Positions 4,235 through 63,442 of a DNA stretch of 64,000 bases are shown one piece after another. Each line of letters begins with the position of its first letter. Positions within the stretch are counted from its first letter, which is position 1. The position numbers and the translations under genes are program-made. The DNA lies in assembly GCF_000971395.1 (NCBI RefSeq), contig NZ_BBME01000016.1:1-64000 (forward strand), written 5' to 3'. The notes beneath the pieces were generated by a model. It saw only the letters and a list, made by a program, of their open reading frames with translations. It was not told the origin of the DNA and ran no database searches. The stretch comes from Demequina iriomotensis (GTDB taxonomy: Bacteria; Actinomycetota; Actinomycetes; Actinomycetales; Demequinaceae).

Positions 4235-4336
4235 CGGGGACGATGCGCGACGCCAGGGGCGGCGCACGTCGGACGATGCGCGGCGCCGGGTCGGCCGCCT
4301 GGCGCAGCGCCGAAGCCACGGCGCGCATCGTCCCCG
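4235..4336. repeat. 15-bp inverted repeat built on the 10-mer, glyQS-znuA intergenic region
   Basis: CGGGGACGATGCGCG (4235-4249) and its exact reverse complement CGCGCATCGTCCCCG (4322-4336) are separated by 72 nt, and a third GGACGATGCG sits between them at 4271-4280. The region is noncoding. All three contain the dispersed 10-mer. A long-loop structure is possible but not compact enough for an ordinary terminator. Confidence 0.7.
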
Positions 4337-4353
4337 CCGGGACCAAGGTCTTA

Positions 4354-4370
4354 TTGCTAATGATTCTCAA
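4354..4370. promoter_or_regulatory. Zur-box-like operator upstream of znuA
   Basis: The AT-rich imperfect palindrome TTGCTAATGATTCTCAA has matching outer TTG/CAA and inner AAT-G-ATT arms, as in Fur/Zur sites. It ends 13 bases before the znuA ATG and therefore overlaps the likely promoter, where zinc-loaded Zur would block transcription. The regulator gene itself is the fourth gene of this operon. No ribosome site lies between the box and the start, so the mRNA is leaderless or nearly so. Confidence 0.75.
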
Positions 4371-4383
4371 TTGCAGTACCGTG

Positions 4384-7385: not shown

Positions 7386-7927
7386 TGCCCGGCATCCCCG
7401 ACGTCGTGTCCGACGGGCCGTGGTGGTGGCTCTTCGCGGCGCTCGTCGTGATCGTCTTCGTCCGTACCCAGGCGACCTACTGGCTCGCGCGGTGGGCGCG
7501 CGCCGGGGCCGATGCGGTCGCCGACCGCGCGGAGGCGCAGCACAGCAGGCGCGCCCGGATCGCGCGCCGCTTCTCCGGGCCCACGATGACCAAGGCGCAG
7601 GCCTTCACCGAGCGCTGGGGCTGGATCGCCATCCCGCTGTCGTTCCTCACGCTGGGCATCCAGTCCCTCGTCAACGGCGGCGCGGGCTACGCGCGGATGC
7701 ACTGGGGGCGGTACACCCTCGCGATGATCCCCGGCTGCCTGCTGTGGGCCGCCGCCTACGAGGTGGTCGGATACTCGGCCTTCAAGGCGTTCACCATGTC
7801 GCCGTGGGCGCTCGGCGGCAGCGTGGTGCTCGTCGCCCTGGCGGTCGCGTTGCTGCTGCGCCGCCGCCGGCGGGAACCCGCCGCGCAGGCGCCCGCCACC
7901 GCATCGTCCCCCGCCGAGCGCGCCTGA
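7385..7927 (+). CDS. DedA/VTT-like small membrane protein
   Basis: Membrane protein of about 180 residues. A hydrophobic segment at residues 11-26 is followed by a basic helix. The central stretch around TERWGWIAIPLSFLTLGIQS and GYARMHWGRYTLAMIPG resembles the SNARE-associated/VTT (DedA) domain, and the C-terminus has another membrane helix ending in RRRRREP. The ATG overlaps the zur stop (TGATG), so it belongs to the zinc transcription unit, although no metal-binding motif is visible. It ends 3 bases from the convergent uppS gene. DedA proteins act as lipid scramblases or transporters; the role here is unproven. Confidence 0.7.
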   Translation: MPGIPDVVSDGPWWWLFAALVVIVFVRTQATYWLARWARAGADAVADRAEAQHSRRARIARRFSGPTMTKAQAFTERWGWIAIPLSFLTLGIQSLVNGGAGYARMHWGRYTLAMIPGCLLWAAAYEVVGYSAFKAFTMSPWALGGSVVLVALAVALLLRRRRREPAAQAPATASSPAERA

Positions 7928-7930
7928 CCG

Positions 7931-8689: not shown

Positions 8690-8735
8690 GCCCGTCAGCC
8701 TAACGGCGGACGATGCGCGGGCGGGGCCGTCGCCG

Positions 8736-11293: not shown

Positions 11294-14744
<3,451 letters not shown>

Positions 14745-16501: not shown

Positions 16502-17565
16502 CGCTGCTCCCCCCGCTCGAAGCGGCGCTTCTGGCCGGTCGGGCGCGGCGCGCGCCCCGACTCGTTCTCGTCGTTGACGGCGTACGCCGTGATGATGTCG
16601 CTCACCAGGCGGTGGCGCACCACATCGTCCGCGTTCAGGTGGCAGAACGCGATGTCCTCGACCCCGGACAGGATCTCCGAGGCCGCGCGCAGGCCCGAGC
16701 GGGTGCCGCCGGGCAGGTCGACCTGGGTGACGTCGCCCGTCACCACCATGGTGGTGCCGAAGCCCAGACGCGTGAGGAACATCTTCATCTGCTCGCGCGT
16801 GGTGTTCTGCGCCTCGTCGAGGATGACGAACGCGTCGTTGAGCGTGCGCCCGCGCATGTACGCGAGCGGCGCCACCTCGATGGTCCCGGCCTCCATGAGG
16901 CGCGGGATCGACTCGGGGTCCACCATGTCGTGCAGCGCGTCGTACAGCGGCCGCAGGTAGGGGTCGATCTTCTCGCTGAGCGAGCCGGGCAGGAAGCCGA
17001 GCCGCTCGCCCGCCTCGACGGCCGGGCGCGTGAGGACGATGCGGTTGACGCGCTTCGACTGCAGCGCCGCCACCGCCTGGGCCATGGCGAGGTACGTCTT
17101 GCCCGTGCCGGCGGGCCCGATGCCGAAGGTGATGGTGTGCGACTCGATCGCGTGGACGTACGCGGCCTGCCCCTGCGTCTTGGGGCGGATGGTGCGCCCG
17201 CGCGTCGACAGGATCGAGCGGCTCAGGACGCCCGCGGGCCGCTCCGCGGTCGCGGTGGACGATGCGCCCGCGGCCCCGTCCGCACGCCCGCCGCCGCCCG
17301 TGGCACGCAGCATCCGCACCGACTCGCGCGCGACGTCGGGCGTGAGCGGCACGCCCGCGCCCAGCACGTCGCGCAGCTCCTCGACGGCGCCCGCGGCGGC
17401 CGCGACGTCGTCCTCGTCGCCGGTGAGGGTGATGCGGTTGCCGCGCACCATGATGTCGACCGCGGGGAAGGCGCGCTCGACCTCGCGGAGCACGCCGTCG
17501 CCCGAGCCCAGCAGGTCGGGCATGCGCGCCGCGTCGTCGACCACGACCACCCGGGTGACGCTCAC
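16498..17565 (-). CDS. phoH: PhoH family ATPase
   Basis: Cytoplasmic P-loop ATPase of 355 residues, linked in other bacteria to RNA processing alongside YbeY. The N-terminal third has a KH-like segment ([14 protein letters not shown]). Walker A is GPAGTGKT (near residue 165), followed by [15 protein letters not shown]; Walker B is FVILDEAQN, and a [10 protein letters not shown] motif follows. GTG at 17565 overlaps the HIT gene stop as GTGA. The 10-mer at 17257 lies in the variable region before the ATPase core, where it encodes Ala-Ser-Ser. Confidence 0.95.
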
Positions 17566-17907: not shown

Positions 17908-18663
17908 CTAGCGTAGTGACCAGTGGCCACGCAGTGCGCCGAGCGCGGCGAGCGCCGCGGGGCCGGCGGACGAGGCGCGCAGGACGTGCGGCCCCAGCAC
18001 CACGGCGACGGCGCCGGCGGCGGCGAGCGCCTCGACCTCGGCGTCCGAGATCCCGCCCTCGGGCCCGACGACGATCCATACGGGCTGATCGGCGTCCTCC
18101 CATGCCAGGCCGGCGAGCGGCACCGCCGCGTCCTCGTGCAGGACCAGCACCCGCGCGCCGGCGGCGACCGCGTCGCGCACGCGCGCCGCGAGCTGCCTGG
18201 TGGTCACCGCATCGTCCACCGCGGGCACCCGCGCGCGCCTGCTCTGCTTCGCGGCCGCGAGCGCGAGCGACGCCCATTTCTCGACGCCCTTCGCGGCCTT
18301 GGGGCCGCGCCACTGGACGATCGCCCGGTCGGAGGACCACGGGACGATGCGCGTCGCGCCGAGCTCGACGGCCGCCTCCACCGCCTGCTCGTCCCGCCCG
18401 CCCTTGGCGAGCGCCTGGACCAGCGTGACCTCGGGATCCCGGTCGTGACCCACCGCCTCGACGCGGATCTCCATCCACCGGTCGCCGGTCGCGATCAGCA
18501 CGCCGCTCGCGCGGGCGCCTGCGCCGTCGACCACGTCGACGCGCTCGCCCACCTGGCGCCGCTGCACCGTGACGGCGTGGCGCGCCTCGTCCCCGTCGAC
18601 GCGGAGCGTGCCCCCCACGGCTGCCTCGGCCGCCGCGGGGTCGACGAAGACGGGCGCGGTCAC
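17908..18663 (-). CDS. rsmE: 16S rRNA (uracil-1498-N3)-methyltransferase
   Basis: SPOUT-class, SAM-dependent enzyme methylating U1498 in the decoding region of 16S rRNA; 251 residues. The N-terminal PUA-like part contains DEARHAVTVQRRQVGERV. The C-terminal knot region has VQALAKGGR, a deep-knot motif VVGPEGGISDAEVEA and LGPHVLRASSAGPAAL. GTG at 18663 overlaps the dnaJ stop by four bases. It contains two copies of the 10-mer in opposite orientations (18208 and 18342). Confidence 0.95.
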   Translation of the reverse strand: MTAPVFVDPAAAEAAVGGTLRVDGDEARHAVTVQRRQVGERVDVVDGAGARASGVLIATGDRWMEIRVEAVGHDRDPEVTLVQALAKGGRDEQAVEAAVELGATRIVPWSSDRAIVQWRGPKAAKGVEKWASLALAAAKQSRRARVPAVDDAVTTRQLAARVRDAVAAGARVLVLHEDAAVPLAGLAWEDADQPVWIVVGPEGGISDAEVEALAAAGAVAVVLGPHVLRASSAGPAALAALGALRGHWSLR

Positions 18664-23996: not shown

Positions 23997-25226
23997 CTAC
24001 GTCAGGGAGCGGACCACCAGGTCGGCCAGCAGCCTGCCGCGGCGCGTGAGCCGCAGCGTGCCGCGCAGCGCCGCGGCGCCGTCGATCAGCTCGTCGGCGA
24101 TGAGCCGCGACACCGCCTCGGCGCGTCCGGTCACGCTCTCCGCGGGGACGCCCTCGCGCAGCCGTAGCCGCAGCATGACCTCCTCGAGGCGCAGGTCCTC
24201 CGTCGACAGCTCCTCGCCGTCGGCCTCGGGGCTCTCCCCGGCGGCGAGGCGCGCGGCGTAGGCGCGAGGATGCTTGACGTTCCACCACCGCCGCGCGGGG
24301 ACCTCGGCGCCGTCGGCGAGGTGCGGGCCCAGGTAGGAGTGCGCGCCGGGCCCCACGCCCCACCAGTCCTGGCTGCGCCAGTACGCCATGTTGTGACGGC
24401 AGCGGTCGGAGCTCTCGCGCGCCCAGTTGGAGACCTCGTACCAGGAGTAGCCGGCCTCCGCCAGCATCGCGTCGGCGAGCTCGTACATGTCCGCCTGCAC
24501 GTCCGGGTCCGTGGGCGCCACCTCGCCGCGGCGCAGCTGCCCGCCCATGCGGGTGTTGGGCTCGATCACGAGCGCATAGGCGCTCACATGGTCGGGCTCG
24601 AGCGCGAGCACCGCCTCGAGGCTCGTGCGCCAGTCGGCGAGGGACTCCCCCGGCGTGCCGTAGATGAGGTCGAGGCTGACCTTGAGGCCCGCGTCCCGCG
24701 CCCACGTGACGGCGCGCTCGACGTTCGCGGGGTTGTGCGTGCGGTCGAGCGTCGCCAGCACGTGCGGGACCGCGGACTGCATCCCGAGGCTCACGCGGGT
24801 GAAGCCCGCGCGTGCGAGCGCGTGGAGCGACTCGCGCGTCACCGAGTCGGGGTTCGCCTCGGTGGTGACCTCCGCATCGGCGCTGAGTCCCCACGTCCCC
24901 CGCACCCCGTCGAGCAGCGCGATCAGCGCCGACGAGTCGAGCATCGTGGGCGTGCCCCCGCCGAAGAACACCGTGCGCACCGCGCGCGCGTCGCCGCGCA
25001 TCGTCCCCCGCGCGAACGCCATCTCCTGGAGGGCCGCGTCGACGTAGCCCTCGCGGGTCGCGCCCTCGACCTCGCCGGGGGCGTACGTGTTGAAGTCGCA
25101 GTAGCCACACCGCACGGAGCAGAACGGGACGTGGACGTAGACTCCCAGATCCCTCGCGACAGCACTCATGGCCATAACGCCATCATGCCTGGTGTCGGGG
25201 GAATCCGTCGCGTCGGACGGAGGCAC
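23997..25226 (-). CDS. hemW: Radical SAM heme chaperone HemW (formerly HemN-like)
   Basis: Radical SAM protein of 409 residues. The [4Fe-4S] motif is CSVRCGYCDF (CxxxCxxC, near residue 36), followed by FFGGGTPTMLD and the HemW signature region LGMQSAVPHVLATLDRTHNP. The family was long annotated as oxygen-independent coproporphyrinogen oxidase, but HemW lacks the additional residues of true HemN and is a heme chaperone in other bacteria. GTG at 25226 lies one base after the lepA stop, so translation is probably coupled. ATG 25175 is an alternative start. It carries one 10-mer copy (24997). Confidence 0.92.
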   Translation of the reverse strand: MPPSDATDSPDTRHDGVMAMSAVARDLGVYVHVPFCSVRCGYCDFNTYAPGEVEGATREGYVDAALQEMAFARGTMRGDARAVRTVFFGGGTPTMLDSSALIALLDGVRGTWGLSADAEVTTEANPDSVTRESLHALARAGFTRVSLGMQSAVPHVLATLDRTHNPANVERAVTWARDAGLKVSLDLIYGTPGESLADWRTSLEAVLALEPDHVSAYALVIEPNTRMGGQLRRGEVAPTDPDVQADMYELADAMLAEAGYSWYEVSNWARESSDRCRHNMAYWRSQDWWGVGPGAHSYLGPHLADGAEVPARRWWNVKHPRAYAARLAAGESPEADGEELSTEDLRLEEVMLRLRLREGVPAESVTGRAEAVSRLIADELIDGAAALRGTLRLTRRGRLLADLVVRSLT

Positions 25227-47190: not shown

Positions 47191-48209
47191 GGCTCGAGGC
47201 ACGGGTGGCCGTGACGTCGCGCGGCGTCGACGCGACGCTCTCCGTCGGGGCGCACCGGACGCTCGCGCTGCTGGGCGCGAACGGCGCCGGCAAGTCGACC
47301 GTGCTGGAGTCCCTCGCGGACGTCACCCGGCCCGATCACGCACGCATCGTCCTCGACGGGCAGGTGCTGGCCGAGCCCGGACGCCGCCGCCCGGTGCCGG
47401 CGCGCAGGCGCGGCATCGTCCTCCTGTCCCAGGACGATGCGCTGTTCCCCATGAGCGTCCTCGACAACGTCGCCTTCGGCCCCCGGTCCGCGGGCCGGAA
47501 GGATGCGGAGGACGTGGCGCGCACCTGGCTCGATCACGTCGGCTGCCTCGACCTCGCGGGGAGGCGCCCCGGAGAGCTCTCGGGCGGGCAGGCCCGTCGC
47601 GTCGCGATCGCGCGGGCGCTGGCCGCGGAGCCCCGCGTGCTGCTGCTCGACGAGCCCTTCGCGGGCCTCGACGTCGAGGCCGCGTCCGCGATCCGGGCGC
47701 TGCTCCGCGAGCTGCTCGCCGGGACCACGGCGGTGCTCACCACGCACGACGCGCTCGACGCCCACACCCTGGCGGACGACGTCGCCGTGATGGAGTCCGG
47801 ACGCGTGGTCGAGGCGGGGCCGGCGCGCGAGGTGCTGTCCCGCCCGCGTACGCGGTTCGCCGCCCGGATGGCCGGGCGGGTCCTGATCGAGGGGACGATG
47901 CGCGGCGGGCGCCTCGTCATCGACGAGGTCTCGAGCATCCCCGTCAGCGGCGGTCCCGGTGCGGGCTCTCGCGCGGCGGTCGCGGTGCCGCCGGCGTCCG
48001 TCGCGGTCGCGCTCGAGTCCCCGAGCATCGCGGGCGATCGCGCGTGGATCCTCGACTCCGTGACCACGCTCGAGCCGCGCGGCGATCACGTGCGCGTGCA
48101 CGGCGCGCTCGTGTCCGCGGACGTCGACCCGGAGCTCGCCTCGGAGCTCGAGGCGGGTGCGCGCCTGTGGTGCGGGGTCCCGCGGGGGCTCGACGCGTAC
48201 GCGTTGTAG
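47187..48209 (+). CDS. modC: Molybdate ABC transporter ATP-binding protein
   Basis: 340-residue ATPase. Walker A GANGAGKST (near residue 30), signature LSGGQARR, Walker B VLLLDEP, and switch His in LTTHDALDA. The C-terminal 110 residues form a TOBE/Mop-like domain (VAVPPASVAVALE, VRVHGALVSADVDPEL), as in ModC, where molybdate binding can feed back on transport. It contains three 10-mer copies (47343, 47432, 47893), the densest cluster in any gene. Confidence 0.95.
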   Translation: MRLEARVAVTSRGVDATLSVGAHRTLALLGANGAGKSTVLESLADVTRPDHARIVLDGQVLAEPGRRRPVPARRRGIVLLSQDDALFPMSVLDNVAFGPRSAGRKDAEDVARTWLDHVGCLDLAGRRPGELSGGQARRVAIARALAAEPRVLLLDEPFAGLDVEAASAIRALLRELLAGTTAVLTTHDALDAHTLADDVAVMESGRVVEAGPAREVLSRPRTRFAARMAGRVLIEGTMRGGRLVIDEVSSIPVSGGPGAGSRAAVAVPPASVAVALESPSIAGDRAWILDSVTTLEPRGDHVRVHGALVSADVDPELASELEAGARLWCGVPRGLDAYAL

Positions 48210-49199: not shown

Positions 49200-50206
49200 G
49201 CGTGCACGAGGAGCCGGGGCTGGTCGACCGCTACGGCCGGGCGCACCGCGACCTGCGGATCTCGCTCACGGACCGCTGCTCGCTGCGCTGCACGTACTGC
49301 ATGCCGGCGGACGGGGTCCCCTGGCTCGCGTCGTCGACGCTGCTCACCACCGACGAGATGGTGCGGCTCGCGCGCGTCGCGGTGTCGCTCGGCGTGCGCG
49401 AGGTGCGCCTCACGGGCGGCGAGCCGCTGCTCCGCCCCGACGTGGTGGACGTGGTCGGGGCGCTCGCGGCGCTGCCGACGCCCGACGGCCCGCTCGACCT
49501 GTCCCTCACCACCAACGCGCTGCGGCTGCCGGCGCTCGCCGCGCCCCTGCGCGATGCGGGCCTCGACCGCGTCAACATCTCGCTCGACACGCTCCAGCGC
49601 TCGCGGTTCCTCGAGCTGACGCGCCGCGACCGCCTCGCTGACACGCTCGCGGGCATCGAGGCGGCGCGTGCCGTGGGCTTCGCGCCGATCAAGCTCAACG
49701 CGCTCGTGATGCGTGGCGTGAACGACGACGAGATCGTCGACCTGGTGGCCTTCGCGATCGACCGCGGGCTCGAGATGAGGTTCATCGAGCACATGCCGCT
49801 CGATGGCGGGCACACGTGGCGGCGCGAGGAGATGGTGACGGGCGAGGAGATCCTCGAGGCGATCTCCGCACGGTTCCCGCTCGAGCCCGTGGGACACGAC
49901 GGTGCCGCGCCGGCCGAGACGTTTCGCATCGCGGGGACCACCTCGACGGTCGGGGTCATCGCGTCGGTGACGCGCGCCTTCTGCGACCGCTGCGACCGCG
50001 TGCGCCTCACCGCGGACGGCCAGTTCCGCAACTGCCTCTTCGCGCATGACGAGTCGGACCTCAGGTCGCTGCTGCGCGACGGCGCGGACGATGCGCGGCT
50101 GGCGCAGGCGATGCAGGCGTGCGTCGCGCAGAAGCGGCCGGGCCACGGGATCGACTCGCCCGACTTCCTCCAGCCCGCGCGCCCGATGAGCGCGATCGGG
50201 GGCTGA
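49196..50206 (+). CDS. moaA: GTP 3',8-cyclase
   Basis: Radical SAM enzyme for the first step of molybdenum cofactor synthesis, converting GTP with MoaC to cyclic pyranopterin phosphate; 336 residues. The N-terminal cluster is CSLRCTYC (C28, C32, C35), the C-terminal second cluster FCDRCDRVRLTADGQFRNC, and the protein ends in the functional Gly-Gly (AIGG). LTGGEPLLR is the SAM-binding region. ATG at 49196 overlaps the moaE stop. Confidence 0.96.
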   Translation: MSVHEEPGLVDRYGRAHRDLRISLTDRCSLRCTYCMPADGVPWLASSTLLTTDEMVRLARVAVSLGVREVRLTGGEPLLRPDVVDVVGALAALPTPDGPLDLSLTTNALRLPALAAPLRDAGLDRVNISLDTLQRSRFLELTRRDRLADTLAGIEAARAVGFAPIKLNALVMRGVNDDEIVDLVAFAIDRGLEMRFIEHMPLDGGHTWRREEMVTGEEILEAISARFPLEPVGHDGAAPAETFRIAGTTSTVGVIASVTRAFCDRCDRVRLTADGQFRNCLFAHDESDLRSLLRDGADDARLAQAMQACVAQKRPGHGIDSPDFLQPARPMSAIGG

Positions 50207-50219: not shown

Positions 50220-50840
50220 CTACGCGGGGCCGACCGGCTGCCGCAGGAGGGTCCGCAGCCTCTCCGGTGCCACCTTCCGGAAGTCGCTCAGGTAGATCTC
50301 ATGGTGGCGGCCGGTCATGCGCAGCCCGGCCTCCTCGATCTGGGCGTGCACGCGAGCGAGCGCCGGGCCCTCCGCGTCGAACGAGCCGACGTGAAGCGTC
50401 TGGAGGCAGCGACCCTCGGCAAGCTCCTCGACCCTGACGTCGCCCAGGCGTGCAGGGGCGCCCTTCACCCCGGCCGCGCCGATCGCCCGCTCGAGCAGCG
50501 CATCGTCCACCCAGTCCGGTTGCAGGATCATGAGCGTCCAGTCCCACGCCGACTTGTCGCGCCGCGTGGTGAAGCTCGTGGGGTCCGCAGCGCTCCACAG
50601 ACCTTCGAGCGGCATGACCACATAGTCGCGGCCGAGCTCCCGCTTCGACGCGAACTTCGCCTTGTACGCGACTGGGAAGAGCGCCTCGATGGCCTCCTGG
50701 AAGCTCGGCTCGACGTTGGGATCGCCGTGACCGTCGATCATGAGGTAGCGCGCGGCCGCGACCTCGAGGTCGCGGATCTCATGGCGTCGCGCCTGGTAGG
50801 CGTCGAGCGTCCGCTTGAGGTCTGCCTTGGGCTCGGTCAT
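50220..50840 (-). CDS. GyrI-like domain-containing protein
   Basis: 206-residue protein of the GyrI-like small-molecule-binding superfamily, seen from the length, YVVMPLEGLWSA, WTLMILQPDWV, LQTLHVGSFDAEGPALARVH and MTGRHHEIYLSDFRKV. The superfamily includes effector-binding domains and some drug-sequestering or hydrolytic proteins; there is no DNA-binding domain here. ATG at 50840 has a GGGGAGG ribosome site. The ligand is unknown. A 39-codon frame lies just upstream on the same strand. Confidence 0.82.
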   Translation of the reverse strand: MTEPKADLKRTLDAYQARRHEIRDLEVAAARYLMIDGHGDPNVEPSFQEAIEALFPVAYKAKFASKRELGRDYVVMPLEGLWSAADPTSFTTRRDKSAWDWTLMILQPDWVDDALLERAIGAAGVKGAPARLGDVRVEELAEGRCLQTLHVGSFDAEGPALARVHAQIEEAGLRMTGRHHEIYLSDFRKVAPERLRTLLRQPVGPA

Positions 50841-51676: not shown

Positions 51677-51757
51677 CCGGGCTCGCCGCCGCCGCGTCAC
51701 AGCGACGGGCCACCGATGGCCCGCGCGGACCTCGCGCGACCGCGATCACCCGTGGAA

Positions 51758-51959: not shown

Positions 51960-53309
51960 ATGGAGATCTCCGAGGCCGTCGCGGTGGTGACACGAGCGCT
52001 GGATGCGCTCGTGCCCGCGACGCCCGACGCGCTCGCGACGCTGTCCGAGGGTGAGGTCACGGCCCGCACCACCGTGCTGGCGCAGATCCGCCGTCAGGTC
52101 GACCTCCGTGGTGCGGTGCTGGCCGGTGAGGTCGCCCGACGCTCCGACACCTCCGGTGGTGGCATGGCACGCCGACACGGGCATCGCAACGCCGTCGCGA
52201 TGGTCGCCGACGCCCACGGCGGCACCACCCGCGAGGCCCGCGACCTCATCACCGCCGGTGCGGTCCTCACCGACACTGGTGTCGCGGACGGCTCCGCGCC
52301 CGCGCCGCGCTGGCCGATGCTGGCCGCGGCGCTGCGCGCCGGGGAGGTCTCCACAGCCAAGGCGGCACTGGTCAAAGACACCCTCGACGTCATGTGCGGC
52401 GCCGGCACGGACGTCGAGGCCCGTCTGGTAGGCAAGGCCCGCGCGCTGTCGCTGGCAGACCTGACGAAGGTCTGCACCGACGTGAAAGCACGCTGGGACA
52501 TCGGCCAGCTCGAAGCGCGCGAGAAGCGTCAACGCGGCGAACGCTACCTGTCGATGACCGAGGGCGTGGACGGGATGATCACCCTGCACGCCACGATGGA
52601 CCCCGCCTCCGCCGCACCGATCAAGACCTTCCTCGACGCCCAGGTGCGCCGCACCTTCGCCACCCGTCGCAACGACGGCGCCGGACCCATGCCCGCCGGT
52701 GAAGCCGGACGGATCCGCCTGGACAGCCTCGTCGACCTCGCCCGCCACGGACTGCGCTGCAACCACGCCGGTACGAGCGTGTCGACGACGCTCGTGGTCC
52801 ACCTCGACGAGGAGGCCCTGCGCACCGGGATCGGGCTGGGACGCTGCGACGCGATCACCACCCCCCTCACCGCCGCCACCGCACGCCGCCTCGCCGTCGA
52901 CGCACAGATCATCCCCCTGGTCCTGGGAAGCCGCTCCCAACCCCTCGACCTGGGCTACGCCACCCGCTTCTTCACCCCCGCCCAACGCATCGCACTGGCC
53001 ATCCGCGACGGCGGCTGCGCGTTCTGCCACGCCCCCACCTCATTCTGCGACGCCCACCACATCATCCCCGCCTCCCAAGGCGGACCCTCCGACCTCGCGA
53101 ACGGCGTGCTCCTATGCACCCGCTGCCACCACCGCATCCACGACGACGGCTGGACCATCCACGCCACCCCCACCGAGGTCGGGTTCACCCCACCGGCCAC
53201 CATCGACCCCCAGCAGCGACCACGCCAAGGCGGCAAAGCCACCCTCCACATCGACCTACCCCCACGCGCACCAATCGCCGACGCCGCGGCGACCGTGCCA
53301 CCCTTCTGA
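51960..53309 (+). CDS. DUF222 and HNH endonuclease domain protein (13E12 repeat family)
   Basis: 449 residues. The DUF222 region fills the first 300 residues (EGEVTARTTVLAQIRRQVDL, RKRGERYLSMT-like REKRQRGERYLSMTEGVD). The C-terminal HNH nuclease has CAFCHAPTSFCDAHHIIPA and LCTRCHHRIHDDGWTI, with both zinc-binding CxxC pairs and the catalytic histidine pair. This family is multicopy in many actinobacterial genomes and behaves like a mobile or repeated element, but its biological role is unsettled. It sits between the two halves of the cofactor genes and has none of the dispersed 10-mers. Confidence 0.92.
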   Translation: MEISEAVAVVTRALDALVPATPDALATLSEGEVTARTTVLAQIRRQVDLRGAVLAGEVARRSDTSGGGMARRHGHRNAVAMVADAHGGTTREARDLITAGAVLTDTGVADGSAPAPRWPMLAAALRAGEVSTAKAALVKDTLDVMCGAGTDVEARLVGKARALSLADLTKVCTDVKARWDIGQLEAREKRQRGERYLSMTEGVDGMITLHATMDPASAAPIKTFLDAQVRRTFATRRNDGAGPMPAGEAGRIRLDSLVDLARHGLRCNHAGTSVSTTLVVHLDEEALRTGIGLGRCDAITTPLTAATARRLAVDAQIIPLVLGSRSQPLDLGYATRFFTPAQRIALAIRDGGCAFCHAPTSFCDAHHIIPASQGGPSDLANGVLLCTRCHHRIHDDGWTIHATPTEVGFTPPATIDPQQRPRQGGKATLHIDLPPRAPIADAAATVPPF

Positions 53310-55068: not shown

Positions 55069-56252
55069 GCGGTGAACCTCCTGACGGCGACGATATCGCC
55101 CGCGCGCACCTCGTCCGCGTCCGCGCGCACCCGCGCGAGCCCGTCGGCGGCCGCGAGCCGCGCCACCAGATGCGATCCGGACCCGCCCGACGTCGCCGGA
55201 CGCACCCCCTCCGACGCGATCACCACCGGCATCACCTGCTCGCGACCCGGCGGGCATCGCCAGCCCTCGAGCGCGCCTCGAGGCTCCCAGGCGGGCTCGG
55301 GCACCCCGAGCATCGTCCTCACCGCGGGCGCGACGAACAGCTCGACGCACACCGCGACGGCGACCGGGTTGCCGGGCAGGCACACCACCGGGATCCCGTC
55401 GACCCTCCCCAGGCCCTGCGGCTTCCCCGGCTGGATCGCCACGTTCCGGAAGTCCACGCCGGCGGGAGCGAGTCCCTCCTTGACCGGGTCGTGGTCGCCG
55501 ACGCTCGCCCCGCCCGTGGTCACCACCAGGTCGGCTGACGCGCCGCGCACCGCGGCGAGCACGTCCGCGCCGCGATCGCCGACCGTCCCGAGCGGGACCA
55601 CCTCCGCACCGAGCGCCTCGAGCGCCGCCGCGAGATACGTGGCGTTCGACTCGAAGATCTGCCCGGGGCCCAGGGCGCCTCCCGGCGCGACGAGCTCGTC
55701 GCCCGTCACCAGGAACGCCACACGCGGCCGCCGCGTCACCAACACCTGGGAGACACCGGACGATGCGGCGGCGGCCAGGTGCCGCGGCCGCAGCACGGCG
55801 CCGGCCGGCACCACCAGGTCCCCGGGCGCGGCATCCTCACCGGCGCGGCGGATGTGCGCACCGAGCGGCGCCGGGGCGTCGACGAGGACCGAGGTCGCGG
55901 TGGCGGCCACCCGTTCCTGCGGGATCACGGCATCCGCGCCGGCCGGCACGGGCGCCCCGGTCATAATCCGCACCGCCGCTCCCGGCGCCACGGAACCGGC
56001 GAAGGGGTGCCCCGCGGCCGACTCGCCGATCACCGCGAGCCCGACCGGCGCCGCCTCCGACGCCGTCGCCACGTCCGCGCCGCGCACCGCGTAGCCGTCC
56101 ATCGCGGAGTTGTCGAAGGGCGGGATCGCGCCGGCGGCCCGCACATCGTCCGCCAGCACCCTCCCGAGCGCCTCCCCCAGAGGGACGGCCTCGAACTCGG
56201 GCTCGCGCACCAGCGCGAGGACCTGGGCGAGGTGCTCGGCCGCGCTACGCAC
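55065..56252 (-). CDS. moeA: Molybdopterin molybdenumtransferase
   Basis: 395 residues. MoeA inserts molybdate into adenylated molybdopterin. Key motifs: PPFDNSAMDGYAVRGADV near residue 45, RIMTGAPVPAGADAVIPQE, VTGDELVAPG, TTGGASVGDHD and CLPGNPVAVAV. GTG at 56252 overlaps the moeB stop (GTGCGTAG). One 10-mer copy (55758) encodes Ala-Ser-Ser. Confidence 0.95.
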   Translation of the reverse strand: MRSAAEHLAQVLALVREPEFEAVPLGEALGRVLADDVRAAGAIPPFDNSAMDGYAVRGADVATASEAAPVGLAVIGESAAGHPFAGSVAPGAAVRIMTGAPVPAGADAVIPQERVAATATSVLVDAPAPLGAHIRRAGEDAAPGDLVVPAGAVLRPRHLAAAASSGVSQVLVTRRPRVAFLVTGDELVAPGGALGPGQIFESNATYLAAALEALGAEVVPLGTVGDRGADVLAAVRGASADLVVTTGGASVGDHDPVKEGLAPAGVDFRNVAIQPGKPQGLGRVDGIPVVCLPGNPVAVAVCVELFVAPAVRTMLGVPEPAWEPRGALEGWRCPPGREQVMPVVIASEGVRPATSGGSGSHLVARLAAADGLARVRADADEVRAGDIVAVRRFTA

Positions 56253-56964
56253 GGACGCCGCCCGACACCGGCAGCGAGCGCCACTCGCCGTCGCGCGCAT
56301 CGATCACCTGGAGCGTCCCGGCGAGCCCCGGCCCCGCCCCCGTGAGCAGCACCACGGCCTGCGAGGCCATGGCCGCCCCCACCTGCCCACACAGCGGGCC
56401 GAGCACTCCGCCCGCGTCGCACACCCCGAAGTCCGGCGCCGGCTCCTCCGGGAACACGTCGCGCACGCTGCGTCCCCCCGAGAACACCGTGACCTGCCCG
56501 AACCACCCCTGCACCGCGCCCCACACGAGGGGGATGCCCAGCCCGGCGGCCGCATCGTCCACCGCGAGGCGCGAGCCCCACGTGTCGGTGCAGTCGAGGA
56601 CCAGGCTGTGCCCCGCGAGCGCCTCGCGGGCGGACGATGCGCCGAGCCGGGCGGGCACGGCCGTCACCTCGACGCCGGGCGCGAGGGCACTCAGGCGGGC
56701 CGCCGCCGCCGAGACCTTCGCCTCGCCGACGTCGGACGGGCCGAACAGCACCTGCCGATGAAGGTTGGACACGGCCACCCGGTCGCCGTCGATGAGCGTG
56801 AGGCGTCCCACCCCGGCGGCGGCGAGGTACAGCGCCGCGGGGCATCCCAGGCCCCCCACGCCCACGATCGCGACGCTCGCCGCGCTCAGCGCCTCCTGGC
56901 CCGCGGCCCCGAACCCCGGCAGGGCGCGTTGCCGCACGTATGCGTCAGCTTCCACCCGCGTCAC
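56245..56964 (-). CDS. moeB: HesA/MoeB/ThiF family adenylyltransferase
   Basis: 239-residue E1-like enzyme expected to adenylate the MoaD C-terminus. The ATP site is VAIVGVGGLGCPAALYLAAAG with DGDRVAVSNLHRQ; later CTDTWGSR and GVCDAGGVLGPLCGQ follow. The zinc CxxC pairs of E. coli MoeB are not evident, and there is no rhodanese domain. A role in thiamine instead cannot be excluded, but the operon favours MoaD. GTG 56964 overlaps the sirB end by 20 bases; GTG 56955 is an alternative start. It holds two 10-mers. Confidence 0.88.
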   Translation of the reverse strand: MTRVEADAYVRQRALPGFGAAGQEALSAASVAIVGVGGLGCPAALYLAAAGVGRLTLIDGDRVAVSNLHRQVLFGPSDVGEAKVSAAAARLSALAPGVEVTAVPARLGASSAREALAGHSLVLDCTDTWGSRLAVDDAAAGLGIPLVWGAVQGWFGQVTVFSGGRSVRDVFPEEPAPDFGVCDAGGVLGPLCGQVGAAMASQAVVLLTGAGPGLAGTLQVIDARDGEWRSLPVSGGVRA

Positions 56965-57631: not shown

Positions 57632-58743
57632 GCCGCGCTCACCGCCAACGCATAGCCGCGCTTGACCACCGTTCTCACCAGCATGGGCGCCCCCGAGTTC
57701 TCCCGCAGCCTGTTGATCGCCGCCTCGACCGCGTGCGGACCCGCCTGGGCGCCCGGCAGCACCGCCGCGAGCTGCTCGCGCGAGAGCACGTTGCCCTTCG
57801 CCTCGGCGAGCGCACGCAGGATCTCGAGGCCCGTGGGCGTGAGCGGCAGCACCCTCCCGTCGAGCACCGCCGCGGTGGCGCGCATGACGAGCGGCCCGTC
57901 CGGTGTGGTGATCCCCACCGCGGACTCCGTGAACTCCTGCACCAGCATGCGCACGAGCGCGCCCAGCCGCCAGCGGTCCGGGTGCTGCACCACCAGCCCA
58001 GCCGCCTCGAGCGGGGCCGCCGTCACCGGCCCCACCGCCGCGACCACCAGCTTGCCGGACGCGGCCCGCGCGGCGATCCCCGCGAGCGCGCCACGCGACC
58101 TCGCGGTCGCGAGCCACGACTCGGCGGCGGGCGCGGACGTGAACAGCACCGCATCGGCGCCGCCCGCGGCCGCCTGGTCGATCCATTCGTCGTGCAGCGC
58201 GGGGTTGAGCGGGGCGCCCCAGCCGTACACCAGGAGGCTCTGCACCTCGGCACCCGCGTCCGCGAACGCCTCGTCGAGGCCGTCCGAGCCGTTGCCGTGG
58301 TGCTGGACCGCCACGCGCAGGCCCGCGACGCCCTCGGCCAGCAGGTAGTCCCGCAGCTCCGCCGCGGTCTCCGACTCCGCGACCCAGTCCGCCTCGAGGC
58401 CCGCCTGCTGGATCGCGCCGCGCGCCTTGGGACCGCGCGCGATGAAGCGCGCGTCGCGGATCGCGTCGAGCAGGTCCTCGGCGAGGCCCGCCGCGTCGGC
58501 CGCCTCGATCCAGCCGCGGAAGCCGATGCCCGTGGTCGCGACCACGATGTCGGGCGGCGACGCGATGAGCGCCCGCGTGTCCTCGATCAGCCGCGCATCG
58601 TCCAGGTGCGGGATGGTGCTGAGCGCGGGAGCGTGCCGCACGCTCGCGCCGCGCCTCTCGAGCGCCGAGGCCAGCTCTCGCTTGCGCCGGTCCGCCGTGA
58701 TGACCATCACGCACCCCGACAGCGGCTCTCCCACCATCGACAC
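57628..58743 (-). CDS. nnaR: Uroporphyrinogen-III synthase-like regulator with winged helix (NnaR type)
   Basis: 371 residues. Residues about 1-260 have the HemD fold (CVMVITADRRKRELASALERRG, ATTGIGFRGWIEAA, AVLFTSAPAAESWL, VVAAVGPVTAAPLEAAG). Residues about 275-371 are an OmpR/PhoB-type winged helix (LTPTGLEILRALAEAKGNVLSREQL, VEAAINRLRENSG, RTVVKRGYAL). This architecture is NnaR, which with GlnR activates nitrate/nitrite assimilation genes in Streptomyces and mycobacteria. Location between nirBD/cysG and sirB supports this. Enzymatic activity as a true HemD is possible but not the main expectation. Confidence 0.88.
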   Translation of the reverse strand: MSMVGEPLSGCVMVITADRRKRELASALERRGASVRHAPALSTIPHLDDARLIEDTRALIASPPDIVVATTGIGFRGWIEAADAAGLAEDLLDAIRDARFIARGPKARGAIQQAGLEADWVAESETAAELRDYLLAEGVAGLRVAVQHHGNGSDGLDEAFADAGAEVQSLLVYGWGAPLNPALHDEWIDQAAAGGADAVLFTSAPAAESWLATARSRGALAGIAARAASGKLVVAAVGPVTAAPLEAAGLVVQHPDRWRLGALVRMLVQEFTESAVGITTPDGPLVMRATAAVLDGRVLPLTPTGLEILRALAEAKGNVLSREQLAAVLPGAQAGPHAVEAAINRLRENSGAPMLVRTVVKRGYALAVSAA

Positions 58744-58756
58744 GCGGACCTCCCCG

Positions 58757-59983
58757 TCACTCGCGCCGCGGCGGTGTCGCGGCGATCTGCGAGGCCAGAA
58801 GTCCCGGCCCCGCCACGTTTCCGACGACGATAACGGCGGGAGGTTTCACCCCTGTTTCCCCCGCGATAAGAACGATGTCAGCCAGGGTTCCGTGCGTGAC
58901 GCGCTCGTCGGCCGTGGTGCCCGACTCGACGATCGCGACGGGCGTGGCGGGGTCCGCACCTCCAGCCAGGCCAGCGGCGACGATGTCCGGCAGCGCCGCG
59001 ACCCCCATGAGCACCACGACGGTGGTCCCGTGCGTCATCGCCGCGACCGAGGTCGCGTCGGCGCCCGCATGCCCCGACGTGACGAGCACCGCGGTCGACA
59101 GGCCCCGCTGCGTCACGGGGATGCCCGCGCGGCCCGGCACGGACAGCGCCGACGTCACGCCCGGCACCACCTCGACCGGCACCCCCGCCTCGAGGCACGC
59201 GTGGACCTCCTCGCCCCCGCGCCCGAGCACGAAGGGGTCGCCGCCCTTGAGTCGCACCACCGTGCGGCCCGCCTGCGCGTGCTCCACGAGGATCCGGTTG
59301 ATCTCGTCCTGCGGCACCGGGTGGCGGTCGGGAGACTTGCCGACGTTGATCATCTCGACGTCATAGGGCACGGACACCAGCAGCTCGGTGGTGCCGAGCC
59401 TGTCGGTCACCACCACATCGGCCTCCGCGAGCGCCTGGCGCCCGCGCACCGTGATGAGCCCCGGGTCGCCCGGGCCCGCGCCGACGAGGATCACCCGGCC
59501 CGCGCCGTCACGGCGCCGCCGGAGGTCGACCTCGCCCGCGTCGATGAGCGCGGCGATCGCGTCGCGCACCGCGCGGATGCGTCGCGGGTCCGGCCTGTCG
59601 GTGGAGATGACCCCCACCGCGAGCTCGCCGTGGCGCGACACCGCCGCCTGACGCGCCGTGCCCCGCGACGCGTCGGAGGCGTCGATGCAGAACACCCGCC
59701 GCGCCGCGGCCCACGCCGCGACCGCGTCGTTGACGGCCGCATCGTCCGTCGCCGCAAGCACGAACCAGGCGCCGTCGAGGTCGCCCTCGACGACGGCGCG
59801 CGCGTCCCACGAGAGGTCGCCGTGCTGCGCGAGCCGCTGCACGTCGTCGCTCGCGTGGGGCGCGACGACGTGCACCTGGGCGCCCTCCGCGAGGAAGCGC
59901 TTGATGCGCCGCGAGGCGACGTGGCCGCCCCCGGCGACGAGGACGCGCCGATTCTTGAGATCGAGTCCGAAGAGAGCCGTCAC
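58757..59983 (-). CDS. cysG: Fused precorrin-2 dehydrogenase and uroporphyrinogen-III C-methyltransferase
   Basis: 408-residue bifunctional siroheme enzyme. The N-terminal NAD-dependent precorrin-2 dehydrogenase has VLVAGGGHVASRRIKRFLAEG (residues about 14-34) and continues to about residue 155. The C-terminal SAM-dependent methyltransferase begins VILVGAGPGDPGLIT and has LKGGDPFVLGRGGEE, VVPGVTSALSVPG and GIPVTQRG. CysG order is as in E. coli; metal insertion is covered by the separate sirB. GTG 59983 overlaps the nirD stop (GTGA). Confidence 0.94.
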   Translation of the reverse strand: MTALFGLDLKNRRVLVAGGGHVASRRIKRFLAEGAQVHVVAPHASDDVQRLAQHGDLSWDARAVVEGDLDGAWFVLAATDDAAVNDAVAAWAAARRVFCIDASDASRGTARQAAVSRHGELAVGVISTDRPDPRRIRAVRDAIAALIDAGEVDLRRRRDGAGRVILVGAGPGDPGLITVRGRQALAEADVVVTDRLGTTELLVSVPYDVEMINVGKSPDRHPVPQDEINRILVEHAQAGRTVVRLKGGDPFVLGRGGEEVHACLEAGVPVEVVPGVTSALSVPGRAGIPVTQRGLSTAVLVTSGHAGADATSVAAMTHGTTVVVLMGVAALPDIVAAGLAGGADPATPVAIVESGTTADERVTHGTLADIVLIAGETGVKPPAVIVVGNVAGPGLLASQIAATPPRRE

Positions 59984-60366
59984 TCGCCACCTGCCAGGTC
60001 GATGATCACCTGGCCATTGTCGATGCTGACGGGGTAGACGACCAAGTCCGCGGCCGCTCCGGCGACAGGTTCCTTGTCCATGGTGACCAGGCAGGACCCG
60101 TCGAGGAGCGAGAAGACCTGCTTGTAGATCGGCGATGCCACCGTCGGCACGCCGCCGCGGTCGCCGGTGATCCCGCGCGACATCACCTGCGCGCCCGAGA
60201 ACGGGCACCGGTTCTGCACGGCGTGGACGCTGCCGTCCCACAGGCGGAACAGGGCGATCTGAACCCCCTCGACGAGCGCGGCGACGCCGAGCTCGGGCGA
60301 CAGGCGGTCGTAGTCGCAGACCACGACGCGGCTCGAGGCGACGGACGATGCGGCGGTGACGGTCAT
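59980..60366 (-). CDS. nirD: Nitrite reductase small subunit NirD (copy 1)
   Basis: 128-residue Rieske-like small subunit of NADH-dependent assimilatory nitrite reductase. Typical NirD motifs: AVQNRCPFSGAQVMSRGI, ASPIYKQVFSLLDGSCLVTMD. The Rieske Cys/His ligand pairs are not present, as usual for NirD, so no iron-sulfur cluster is expected. ATG 60366 overlaps the nirB stop. The 10-mer at 60343 lies in the variable N-terminus. It is clearly similar to copy 2 at 63062. Confidence 0.95.
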   Translation of the reverse strand: MTVTAASSVASSRVVVCDYDRLSPELGVAALVEGVQIALFRLWDGSVHAVQNRCPFSGAQVMSRGITGDRGGVPTVASPIYKQVFSLLDGSCLVTMDKEPVAGAAADLVVYPVSIDNGQVIIDLAGGE

Positions 60367-62942
60367 GCGTGGACCTCCAGTCGGGCGGGGGCGATGAGGA
60401 CCGCGCCCGAGGCGCGCTCCTCCGCGGTGGCGGGGCGGATCTGGCCGCGCTGCTCGACGTAGGCGAGCGACGGGTCGGCCGTGTCGGGCGCGTTGACGAA
60501 GCTGGTGAACTGCTGGAGGCGCTCCGGGTCGCTCAGGACCGCCTTCCACTCGTCCTCGTACGTGTCGAGGTGGTGGGCCATGTGGGCGTCGAGCTCGGCG
60601 CAGATGCCGAGCGAGTCCTCGACCACGACCCGCCGGATCTCGTCGAGCCCGCCCTCGTACTCGGCCTGCCACGGCGCCGTGCGCTGCAGGCGGTCCGCGG
60701 TGCGGATGTAGAGCATGAGGTAGCGGTCGATGTAGGTGAACGCCTCCTCGTCGGTGACGTCCGCGACCAGCAGCTCCGCGTGGGCCGGCGTGAAGCCGCC
60801 GTTGCCGCCCACGTAGACGTTCCAGCCCTTCTCGGTGGCGATGAGGCCCACGTCCTTGCCGCGCGCCTCGGCGCACTCGCGCGCGCAGCCCGACGCGGCG
60901 AGCTTGATCTTGTGCGGGCTGCGCAGCCCGCGGTAGCGCAGCTCGAGCGCGATCGCCATCGAGGCCGAGTCCTGGACCCCATAACGGCACCACGTCGACC
61001 CGACGCACGACTTCACGGTGCGCAACGACTTGCCGTACGCGTGGCCCGACTCCATGCCCGCATCCACGAGCCGCTTCCAGATCTGCGGCAGCTGCTCGAG
61101 ACGGGCCCCGAACAGGTCGATCCGCTGCCCGCCGGTGATCTTGGTGTAGAGCCCGAAGTCCTCGGCGACCTCGGCGATGACCTTGAGCCGCGCCGGCGTG
61201 ATCTCGCCGCCGGGGATGCGCGGGACCACCGAGTAGGTGCCGTCCTTCTGCATGTTCGCCATGACGCGGTCGTTGGTGTCCTGCAGCGCCGCGCGGTCGC
61301 CGCCCAGCACGTGCTCGTTGTGGATCGAGGCGAGGATGGAGCCGACGGTCGGCTTGCAGATGTCGCAGCCGTGCCCCGCGCCGAACCGCTCGATCACCTC
61401 GGTGAAGGTGCGCAGCTCGGCGACGTGGATCGCGCTGAACAGCTGGGCGCGCGACAGCGTGAAGTGCTCGCACAGGGCGTTCGAGACCTCGAGCCCGGCC
61501 TTCTCGAGCTCGCCGGCCATGACCTTCTTCACCAGCGGTAGGCACGAGCCGCACGCGGTGCCGGCCTTGGTGCAGGACTTCACCGAGCCGAGGTCGTGGC
61601 AGCCCTCGTGGTTGACCGCGTCACGGATGGTGCCCGCGGTGACGTTGTTGCACGAGCACACGGTCGCGGCGTCGGGGAGCTCGAGCTCGGGGCGCTCGAC
61701 GGCACCCTCGGGCAGGATCCACGCGGACGGGTCGCCGGGGAGCTTCGCGCCGATCATCGGGCGCAGCGTCGCGTAGGCGGACGCGTCGCCGACGAACATG
61801 CCGCCCAGGAGGGTCGACGCATCGTCCGTCATGACGAGCTTCTTGTAGTCGCCGCTGAACGGGTCGGAGTAGACCACCTCGAGCGCGCCCGGCGTCTGCG
61901 CGAAGGCGTCGCCGAAGGACGCGACGTCGACCCCGAGCAGCTTGAGCTTGGTCGCCGTGTCGGCGCCCAGGTAGTGCGCGTCGCCGCCGAGCAGGCGGTC
62001 AACGGCGACGTCCGCCATCGTGTTGCCGGGCGCGATGAGGCCCACGGAGAGGTGGCCGTCGGCCGCCGCAGCGGCGCATTCGCCGATCGCGCTGATGGCC
62101 GGATCCGACGTGAGCGACGTGTCGTCGACGAGCACTCCCCCGCGCTCGCCGATGCCGAGCCCGGCACCGCGGCCCAGGTCGTCGCGCGGACGGATCCCGG
62201 TGGCGAACACCACGACGTCGACCAGCTGCTCCCCGCCGTCGGAGAACACGAGGGTCCCGGCGTTGCCGTCGCGGTCGGCGCGGACCTCGGAGGTCGCGGC
62301 GCCCGTGCGGACGGTGACGCCCAGCTTCTCGATGAGGCGCTTGAGCGCCTCGCCGCCCGAGTCGTCCACCTGCAGCGCCATGAGGCGGTCGGCGAACTCG
62401 ACGACGGTGCTGGTGGCGCCCATGGACTGCAGCGCACCCGCCGCCTCGAGGCCCAGCAGGCCGCCGCCGATGACGGCGCCGCGGACCGGTCGGTTGAAGA
62501 ACCGCTGGCGGGTCTCGACCCACTCGCGCAGCCGGGCGACGTCGTCGACCGTGCGGTACATGAACACACCCGGCAGGTCGACGCCCGGCACGGGCGGTGC
62601 CCACGCGTAGGAGCCGGTCGCGAGCACCAGGTGGTCGTACGCAGCGTCGCGGCCGTCGGCGAGGCGCACCGCCCGGGCCTCGCGGTCGATCGCGACCACC
62701 GGCGCGTCGCGGTGGAGCGTCACGCTGTCGTGGTCCCAGAGCGAGGGCTCGCCGAGCAGCAGGTCCTCGGGGCTCTTGCCCTGGAAGTAGCTGGTGAGCG
62801 CCACGCGGTCGTAAGGGGCGTACGGCTCCTCGCCGTAGACCTCGACCTCGAAGCGGCCGTCCGTGTCGCGCTCCAGCAGGGTGGAGACGAAGCGATGGGC
62901 GACCATGCCCGCTCCGACGACGACGATGCGCTCGTTGCTCAT
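60363..62942 (-). CDS. nirB: Nitrite reductase large subunit NirB (copy 1)
   Basis: 859-residue siroheme enzyme reducing nitrite to ammonium with NADH. FAD site IVVVGAGMVAH (6-16), NADH site AVIGGGLLGLEAAG (156-169), BFD-like [2Fe-2S] cysteines C429, C431, C464 and C467, and the siroheme/[4Fe-4S] cysteines C646, C652, C686 and C690 are all present. ATG 62942 follows GGAAGG by about 7 nt. The 119-base gap to nirD copy 2 holds no clear GlnR box by eye. It heads nirB-nirD-cysG-nnaR-sirB-moeB-moeA and on to moaD. One 10-mer copy (61818) encodes Asp-Asp-Ala. Confidence 0.96.
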   Translation of the reverse strand: MSNERIVVVGAGMVAHRFVSTLLERDTDGRFEVEVYGEEPYAPYDRVALTSYFQGKSPEDLLLGEPSLWDHDSVTLHRDAPVVAIDREARAVRLADGRDAAYDHLVLATGSYAWAPPVPGVDLPGVFMYRTVDDVARLREWVETRQRFFNRPVRGAVIGGGLLGLEAAGALQSMGATSTVVEFADRLMALQVDDSGGEALKRLIEKLGVTVRTGAATSEVRADRDGNAGTLVFSDGGEQLVDVVVFATGIRPRDDLGRGAGLGIGERGGVLVDDTSLTSDPAISAIGECAAAAADGHLSVGLIAPGNTMADVAVDRLLGGDAHYLGADTATKLKLLGVDVASFGDAFAQTPGALEVVYSDPFSGDYKKLVMTDDASTLLGGMFVGDASAYATLRPMIGAKLPGDPSAWILPEGAVERPELELPDAATVCSCNNVTAGTIRDAVNHEGCHDLGSVKSCTKAGTACGSCLPLVKKVMAGELEKAGLEVSNALCEHFTLSRAQLFSAIHVAELRTFTEVIERFGAGHGCDICKPTVGSILASIHNEHVLGGDRAALQDTNDRVMANMQKDGTYSVVPRIPGGEITPARLKVIAEVAEDFGLYTKITGGQRIDLFGARLEQLPQIWKRLVDAGMESGHAYGKSLRTVKSCVGSTWCRYGVQDSASMAIALELRYRGLRSPHKIKLAASGCARECAEARGKDVGLIATEKGWNVYVGGNGGFTPAHAELLVADVTDEEAFTYIDRYLMLYIRTADRLQRTAPWQAEYEGGLDEIRRVVVEDSLGICAELDAHMAHHLDTYEDEWKAVLSDPERLQQFTSFVNAPDTADPSLAYVEQRGQIRPATAEERASGAVLIAPARLEVHA

Positions 62943-63061
62943 CCGGGTGCCTTCCCGTCCCGCACCGGAGAGCATCACGCCGACCCGCCGGGTGCGAGGG
63001 GCGATGGTGGGGACCACTGCTCCTCGAGGGTAGAAGGCGCTTCGCATGGCGCCCCGTGACG

Positions 63062-63442
63062 TCAGTCCCGGGCCAGCGTCACCACGACCGCGTCGCCCTC
63101 GGCGGCGACGGCGTGGACGCGCAAACCGGGCGCGAGCCCCTCCTTCGGCTCCTTGTCCATCGTCACCAGGCACGCCCCGTCGAGCAGCGAGAACACCTGC
63201 TTGTAGATCGGCGACGCGATCGTGGGCACGTCCCCCCGCGAGCCCGTGATCCCGCGCGACATCACCGACGCGCCCGAGAACGGGTCGAGGTTCTGCACGC
63301 AGTGGAGCGAGCCGTCCGCGAGCAGGAAGATCGCGACCTGAACCCCCTCGACGAGCGCGGCCACGCCCAGCTCGGGGGTGAGGTCGCCCAGCGCGCACAC
63401 GCGGGTCGCGGTGGACGATGCGGTGTCGGGAACGGCGGTCAT
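63062..63442 (-). CDS. nirD: Nitrite reductase small subunit NirD (copy 2)
   Basis: 126 residues with the same motifs as copy 1 (CVQNLDPFSGASVMSRGI, ASPIYKQVFSLLDGACLVTMDKEP) but diverged in the N-terminal and C-terminal parts. Here Asp replaces the Cys before PFSG. ATG 63442 overlaps the stop of the upstream nirB. It is paired with a second nirB, so nirBD is duplicated in tandem. A 10-mer lies in its N-terminus at 63413, the position corresponding to that in copy 1. Confidence 0.94.
   Translation of the reverse strand: MTAVPDTASSTATRVCALGDLTPELGVAALVEGVQVAIFLLADGSLHCVQNLDPFSGASVMSRGITGSRGDVPTIASPIYKQVFSLLDGACLVTMDKEPKEGLAPGLRVHAVAAEGDAVVVTLARD

Follow-up and report, generated by a model that had tools for sequence, protein, structure and literature searches.

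Why does a single 10-base word recur throughout a 64-kb stretch of the genome of Demequina iriomotensis? The stretch (contig NZ_BBME01000016.1, positions 1 to 64,000; referred to as the window at its full length of 64,000 nucleotides) was counted for exact matches on both strands and contained 32 copies of the word GGACGATGCG, 16 in each orientation, spanning positions 4238–63422. In 100 dinucleotide-preserving shuffles of the window, the mean was 1.03 copies and the maximum was 4. An earlier note, made from the sequence alone, had reported this excess, its strand balance, and exactly this span; its count of at least 31 copies (15 and 16 by strand) becomes 32. We consider it likely that GGACGATGCG is a DNA uptake sequence (DUS), that is, a self-tag of naturally competent Demequina species. 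Somewhat less firmly, we propose that it would represent a third independent origin of self-recognition in transformation and the first in a monoderm lineage, with a receptor other than the neisserial ComP and at least five word variants within one genus.

In the window, forward copies were located at 4238–4247, 4271–4280, 8708–8717, 17034–17043, 17257–17266, 18342–18351, 22474–22483, 32483–32492 (within comEC), 40322–40331, 47432–47441, 47893–47902, 50086–50095, 55758–55767, 56632–56641, 60343–60352, and 63413–63422. Reverse copies were located at 4324–4333 (inverted relative to the copy at 4271–4280, 53 bp apart), 7900–7909, 13708–13717, 18208–18217, 24997–25006, 28959–28968, 34782–34791, 38032–38041, 39764–39773, 42482–42491, 47343–47352, 50499–50508, 56551–56560, 58594–58603, 59738–59747, and 61818–61827. 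The genome that holds the window (G000; 27 contigs, 3.16 Mb, 99.99% complete) carried 1324 copies, 680 on one strand and 644 on the other, or approximately one per 2.4 kb. The reversed word occurred only three times (two and one by strand). This control may be lenient, as genomes of other genera contained the word itself 1–60 times and, in most cases, the reversed word less often; therefore, stricter controls based on Markov models and codon shuffling were added.

These controls were applied to the window and to a 395,324-base sample of G000, comprising the window, a pilus stretch, and parts of contigs 5, 7, 8, 10, 12, and 15 (two contigs shorter than 1.4 kb, one masked throughout, were left out). 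In the window, GGACGATGCG was the commonest 10-mer, with 32 copies against 4.2 expected under an order-5 Markov model, and among 10-mers with at least five copies it lay farthest above expectation. In the sample, 182 copies were found against 26 expected (z 30), even though the model already includes the hexamers of the word itself. It had the highest z among all 10-mers with at least 10 copies, the next-ranked words being mostly its shifted forms, and it outnumbered every other of the 4702 words observed at its base composition. The earlier note had raised the possibility that other 10-mers might be in comparable excess. This did not overturn the observation: GGACGATGCG ranked first, but some unrelated words were over-represented too, for example AGCCCGAGCC (33 copies against 5.6 expected, z 11.6).

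Codon usage explained little of the excess. The earlier note had called for a genome-wide codon-aware model; run on the 395-kb sample, with gene calls that were composition-based and crude (299 called genes), 60 synonymous-codon shuffles gave a mean of 10.1 coding copies (sd 3.1, maximum 17) compared with 116 real ones. Called genes carried 0.39 copies per kb, and the remaining sequence 0.64. Coding copies fell mainly into sense frame 2 (48), antisense frame 2 (44), and antisense frame 0 (16), with eight in the other three frames. Single-base variants of the word were rarest at positions 4, 5, 6, and 8; the variants above expectation chiefly had A or C at position 2 or C at position 3. The flanks of the 182 copies showed faint preferences only, mainly for G, and no extended, conserved repeat unit was found around them, in keeping with the lack of conserved flanks described previously.

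To determine how widely the word is shared, we compared related genomes, as the earlier note had suggested. GGACGATGCG was present at 711–1564 copies in 15 of 44 Demequina genomes, G000 included, and at 10–235 copies in the rest. Outside the genus, the maximum was 60 copies in a set of 55 genomes and 102 copies, in a genome of 9.4 Mb, in a partly overlapping set of 185 genomes of the order. As far as sampled, the word is thus restricted at high copy number to the genus. The low-copy sister genomes were then screened for over-represented words without supplying one, using at most 160 kb of sequence each and, for many genomes, only short match loci. This screen recovered GGCCGATGCG, GGCCGATGC followed by T or C, GGGACGATGC, and GCCCGACGCT, and found nothing clear in the samples of G001, G011, and G017. 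Most genomes without high numbers of GGACGATGCG carried a related word of their own.

Whole-genome counts supported these variants. GGCCGATGCG reached 1203 copies in G034, 1056 in G029, 1005 in G013, 864 in G033, 862 in G015, and 667 in G031; it also occurred 671 times in G041 and 669 times in G014, both of which are richer still in GGCCGATGC[CT]. This two-word pattern had 327–1269 copies in 13 genomes (over 1000 in G014, G039, G023, G009, and G041) and 45–291 in the other 31. G008 contained 908 copies of GCCCGACGCT (control, 11) and G011 contained 254, while none of the other 42 genomes had more than 52. GGACGATGCC was represented by 20 copies against 1.5 expected in a 120-kb sample of G026, and G021 carried two words, with 927 copies of GGACGATGCG and 483 of GGCCGATGCG. 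We refer to these dialects as A (GGACGATGCG), A2 (GGACGATGCC), B (GGCCGATGCG), B-pyrimidine (GGCCGATGC[CT]), and C (GCCCGACGCT). With thresholds that we set ourselves, under which G006, G035, and G042 are weak cases, the 44 genomes were assigned as 15 A, one A2, six B, 13 B-pyrimidine, one C, and eight without a clear word (G001, G002, G004, G011, G012, G017, G027, and G032). Thus, 36 of 44 genomes had one abundant word of the family. The weak genomes could carry a dialect not recognized here. The dialect words have G1, C4-G5-A6, and G8-C9 in common and follow the pattern G-[GC]-[AC]-C-G-A-[TC]-G-C-N.

A tree of the 20 genomes whose pilus loci were compared, built from alaS, ruvX, mltG, and aroE, placed the A genomes G000, G005, G024, G040, and G021 together with the A2 genome G026 in one clade (support 1.00); the position of G026 inside this clade (0.46) and the placement of G008 (0.56) were poorly supported. 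A second A pair, G003/G038, had the tree neighbors G001, G027, and G011, which are without the A word, and B-type words were more widespread across the tree. Weak excesses were also seen, namely GCCCGACGCT in G011 (254 copies), GGCCGATGC[CT] in G017 (263 copies), and CGGCCGACGC in G002 (25 against 4.5 expected in a 100-kb sample); these may be decayed or nascent dialects.

The genes expected of a competent bacterium were examined in the window and across the genus. Matches to Pfam confirmed that the window encodes both ComEA and ComEC, as noted earlier. On the minus strand, comEA (33829–34539, 236 aa; HHH_3 9.4e-17, SLBB 1.5e-13) encodes the competence DNA-binding protein, with SLBB and helix-hairpin-helix domains, and comEC (31556–33832, 758 aa; Competence 8.7e-37, Lactamase_B 1.3e-10) the DNA translocation channel, both presumed to serve later uptake steps. 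Among the matches listed for ComEA, the closest named one was from D. gelatinilytica (67% over residues 91–235), followed by a Demequinaceae metagenome-assembled genome (MAG; 44%) and D. aurantiaca (40%); an unclassified Micrococcales MAG reached 57% over a shorter stretch and ranked lower. The three Demequina and Demequinaceae loci listed were too short for a dialect to be assigned. ComEA and ComEC were each detected in 43 of 44 genomes, and DprA and a PilB-like ATPase in all 44; the genome without ComEA and ComEC, G004, is 85% complete. In two single-contig genomes, comEC was split over two frames (G008:C1:2039413-2040200 and G026:C1:423579-424363), which may reflect sequencing error or decay. 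In G041, ComEC came as two pieces that overlap, and G028 showed just one piece. All 20 pilus loci examined contained pilB, pilT, pilC, and pilA. In G000, the type IVa pilus locus reads pilB-pilT-pilC-pilA-two minor prepilins-pilD-pilM-pilN-pilO, several of these names being our own reading.

The strand distribution bears on other explanations. No strand skew was found in G000 when stretches and local G/C skew were used, the origin and terminus not having been located: copies were divided 95/87 over 21 stretches (heterogeneity chi-squared 8.7 on 21 degrees of freedom), and 86 lay on the G-rich and 96 on the C-rich strand, so that the G-rich strand was not preferred. Skew was likewise not detected in G013, G034, G008, G003, and G038, with smaller numbers (4–6 stretches each). 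Apparent runs of forward copies in long contigs are probably an effect of how matches were listed; the sequence itself has mixed strands. Chi sites, FtsK orienting polar sequences (KOPS), and architecture imparting sequences (AIMS) are also abundant short chromosomal words, and they are strand-skewed, whereas no skew was seen for the Demequina word. The lack of skew therefore disfavors all three types of site. A Chi-like hotspot, at which a nuclease of the AddAB, AdnAB, or RecBCD type would pause and load RecA, with copies kept by selection for repair, agrees with the high density in both coding and non-coding DNA and with the asymmetry of the word, which could carry direction. However, in E. 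coli the orientation of Chi strongly follows replication, a bias that the stretches of G000 do not show, and single-base dialects together with eight genomes lacking a clear word would require repeated re-tooling or loss of core repair; we regard this explanation as unlikely. We give the same low standing to a selection-spaced site for chromosome organization or segregation (KOPS, AIMS, or the target of an SMC or nucleoid protein). The mean spacing of some 2.1 kb would suit it, as would the division between the strands, which is a little more even than a binomial one, but KOPS and AIMS are defined by replichore skew, which was not seen (with the above limit on origin and terminus), the spacing is close to exponential, and the words turn over rapidly between species, with dialects and losses within the genus.

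A role as an epigenetic mark, recognized by a DNA methyltransferase or restriction-modification system, could yield dialects through exchange of specificity subunits. Such sites are usually short or bipartite and restriction normally depletes them, whereas the word is a continuous asymmetric 10-mer in excess rather than avoided, which makes this explanation very improbable. We find it scarcely credible that the word merely follows from preferred codons or peptides (for example, Asp-Asp-Ala) or from a dispersed repeat element. The concentration of coding copies in three reading frames fits a peptide preference, but shuffles that preserve peptides and codon usage returned only 10 of 116 copies, the strands are used equally, and DNA called intergenic is the denser; the copies lack the common flanks of a repeat family, and sister species carry a different word.

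We prefer the interpretation of the word as an uptake sequence because of the absence of skew, the fast turnover, the single-base dialects, the absences from some lineages, and the competence genes. The earlier note had favored a comparison with uptake sequences, with Chi-like, nucleoid-protein, or modification-system sites as alternatives; the single-base dialects that separate sister species, and competence genes present in almost every genome, lend support to it. Under the mechanism that we propose, a surface receptor, probably a pilin of the type IV pilus, would bind extracellular double-stranded DNA best when it contains the 10-mer; retraction of the pilus would deliver the DNA to ComEA, ComEC would pass one strand inward, and DprA and RecA would recombine it into the chromosome. 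Fragments bearing the word would be taken up and recombined more often, so that biased gene conversion (molecular drive) would spread copies arising by mutation. These would build up on both strands, chiefly at positions that tolerate them well. As the specificity of the receptor drifted, the genome would follow, giving rise to species dialects around a common pattern. We infer the competence of the cells, the uptake bias, the order of the steps, and the nature of the receptor.

Conservation of individual sites agreed with an uptake sequence in one sister pair. The sister genomes G003 and G038 are 86% identical. Of their alignable sites, 9 of 13 were exact in one direction and 11 of 19 in the other (binomial p 0.006 and 0.02, from directions that overlap), compared with 32% of random aligned 10-mers. 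Conservation was 84.4% for DNA up to 150 bp from a site and 86.5% beyond 500 bp. In the word-free G001, 1 of 7 and 1 of 10 of these sites were exact, which is not significantly below the control. In the available text of a study of neisserial DUS, these are described as far better conserved than average sequence, with slightly more divergent neighborhoods (PMC2397512). The G003/G038 sites match this pattern of a conserved word in slightly less conserved surroundings (PMC2397512). Sites of G000 were exact in 0 of 4 cases in G011 and 1 of 9 in G001. In G026, 0 of 5 were exact, two of them reading -GACGATGCC and GGACGATGCC, which is the word of G026. Excess conservation was clear in the one pair only, and the numbers are small.

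Several observations weigh against an uptake function. Retention was weaker elsewhere: for G000 sites, six relatives together gave 12 exact cases out of 30 (controls 20–27%), six other within-clade comparisons of dialect A gave 11 of 28 (controls 19–29%), and between G000 and G003 only 1 of 11 sites was exact against a control of 18%, so that conservation was not found there. Word-free genomes, including G001, G002, G017, and G027, keep ComEA, ComEC, DprA, and pili, and the genes alone therefore fail to predict the word. The pilD and pilM genes of G000 (locus L165) were closer to those of the distant word-free G017 (L176; 68% and 59% identical, alaS 66%) than to those of the near G005 (L171; 40% and 44% identical, alaS 88%), which has the same dialect. 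None of pilB, pilT, pilC, pilA, pilD, and ComEA tracked the dialects (partial correlations −0.37 to 0.08, n 11–15; pilV, pilW, and pilM–O were excluded because too few loci had a blastp match), and these correlations give no support to type IV pilus genes or ComEA as the dialect determinant. Close inverted pairs are a hallmark of neisserial DUS; in 13 genomes, 10 of 21 pairs less than 60 bp apart were inverted, which is no general excess. Depletion in foreign DNA was not demonstrated: by our reading of the translations, the largest word-free gaps contained core genes in addition to accessory-looking ones. Finally, the open-licence literature, among the matches listed, held no uptake or transformation data for Demequina, and the orphan prepilin described below is missing in the dialect-A genomes G010, G019, and G037 and divergent in G003, G005, and G022. 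In the G000 sample itself, 12 of 15 pairs less than 150 bp apart were inverted, and stem-loops exist; in uptake sequences, such inverted pairs may serve as transcription terminators.

The pilus genes were also compared with alaS. Correlations of distance with alaS were 0.04–0.26 for pilT, pilC, pilA, and pilD, 0.41 for pilB, and 0.71 for ComEA. The poor correlations of the first four genes suggest exchange of the locus between species, and the pilD and pilM identities likewise suggest that part of it was exchanged. PilA scored 18.6 bits against the Pfam family ComP_DUS, below the cut-off of 27.3, and a ComP orthologue was not identified. Outside the pilus locus, G000 encodes an orphan, ComP-like type IV prepilin of 138 aa with two C-terminal cysteines (L274, 1486–1902), whose neighbors we read as metE and a glyoxalase-like gene. 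A sequence search matched it to solved type IV pilins, mostly over the N-terminal part; the name ComP was absent from the 22 solved sequences listed. Relatives located by tblastn occur in many, though not all, members of the genus, and many of those from A and B species share 50–62% identity. The residue that follows GYVE near the C-terminus was N in eight of the nine dialect-A genomes with that form, D in G000, and Q in four of four dialect-B genomes. This prepilin is an attractive candidate DNA receptor, but it was rejected as it is not tied to the dialect: it is absent or divergent in 6 of 15 dialect-A genomes, only part of it was recovered in the dialect-B genome G013, and in G031 no complete copy was recovered outside the pilus locus. 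The form with N also occurs in G027, which has no clear word, and in G007, a GGCCGATGC[CT] genome.

The earlier note had drawn attention to the absence of the word between 50.5 and 55.7 kb, around a gene for a DUF222-HNH endonuclease (51960–53309). The gap is real (5259 bp) but lies within chance. In the 395-kb sample, spacing was near exponential (mean 2095 bp, sd 2139), and a gap of at least 5259 bp has a probability of exp(−5259/2095), or about 8%, so that two to three are expected among 33; longer gaps of 8.2–11.8 kb occur elsewhere in the sample. One half of an unrelated repeat sits inside this gap. The repeat family consists of words beginning GAATGGGGC and CCATGGGGCATC, close together and often inverted, and by our reading resembles repetitive extragenic palindromic (REP) sequences or bacterial interspersed mosaic elements (BIME). 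Its loci are position 51755 of the window, L017 12–330, L012 13931–14067, L013 16725–16766, L018 5087–5128, L019 1022–1109, and L021 10659–10735. One scan for inverted pairs revealed no word-rich virus; two viral contigs had two copies each.

The uptake signal sequence (USS) of Pasteurellaceae is likewise a short genome-wide self-tag of competent bacteria and has two subclade forms. It is an A+T-rich 9-mer with extended flanks, whereas the Demequina word lacks a strong flanking motif. In Neisseriaceae, as far as the available text of the source goes, the DUS is a 10-mer with approximately 940–5900 copies per genome and single-base dialects around an invariant core; Simonsiella muelleri holds two dialects, and some related genomes hold none (PMC3630211). 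The Demequina words resemble it in length, in their single-base dialects, in the two-dialect genome G021, and in having word-free relatives. They differ in that the word is unrelated and G+C-rich, belongs to a Gram-positive genus, has the core CGA[TC]GC instead of CTG, and is less dense (approximately 0.1–0.5 per kb), with inverted pairs not generally in excess. We take Demequina to be a monoderm genus; in a monoderm cell, the selective step cannot be passage through an outer membrane. Within the same phylum, Micrococcus luteus is transformed via ComEA and ComEC and requires Flp/Tad pili, and the available text of that report mentions no uptake sequence (PMC6370729). A type IVa pilus locus is present in Demequina as well.

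In the available text of a 2025 paper, two proteobacterial families are described as the only ones known to use uptake sequences (PMC12616744). Among the matches listed from the open-licence literature, there was no report of an uptake sequence in Actinomycetota or of competence in Demequina. The finding bears on whether uptake sequences are peculiar to two proteobacterial families or solve the problem of selective transformation more generally; a Gram-positive case, if true, would take the outer membrane out of the explanation. An uptake sequence predicts natural competence in Demequina. Close species with the word, without it, and with altered words make receptor, drift, and species barriers directly testable and, if the interpretation is true, the five or more variants of the word within Demequina would constitute a ready-made system of sexual isolation. 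Placing the right word on DNA may also offer a genetic tool for transforming these bacteria.

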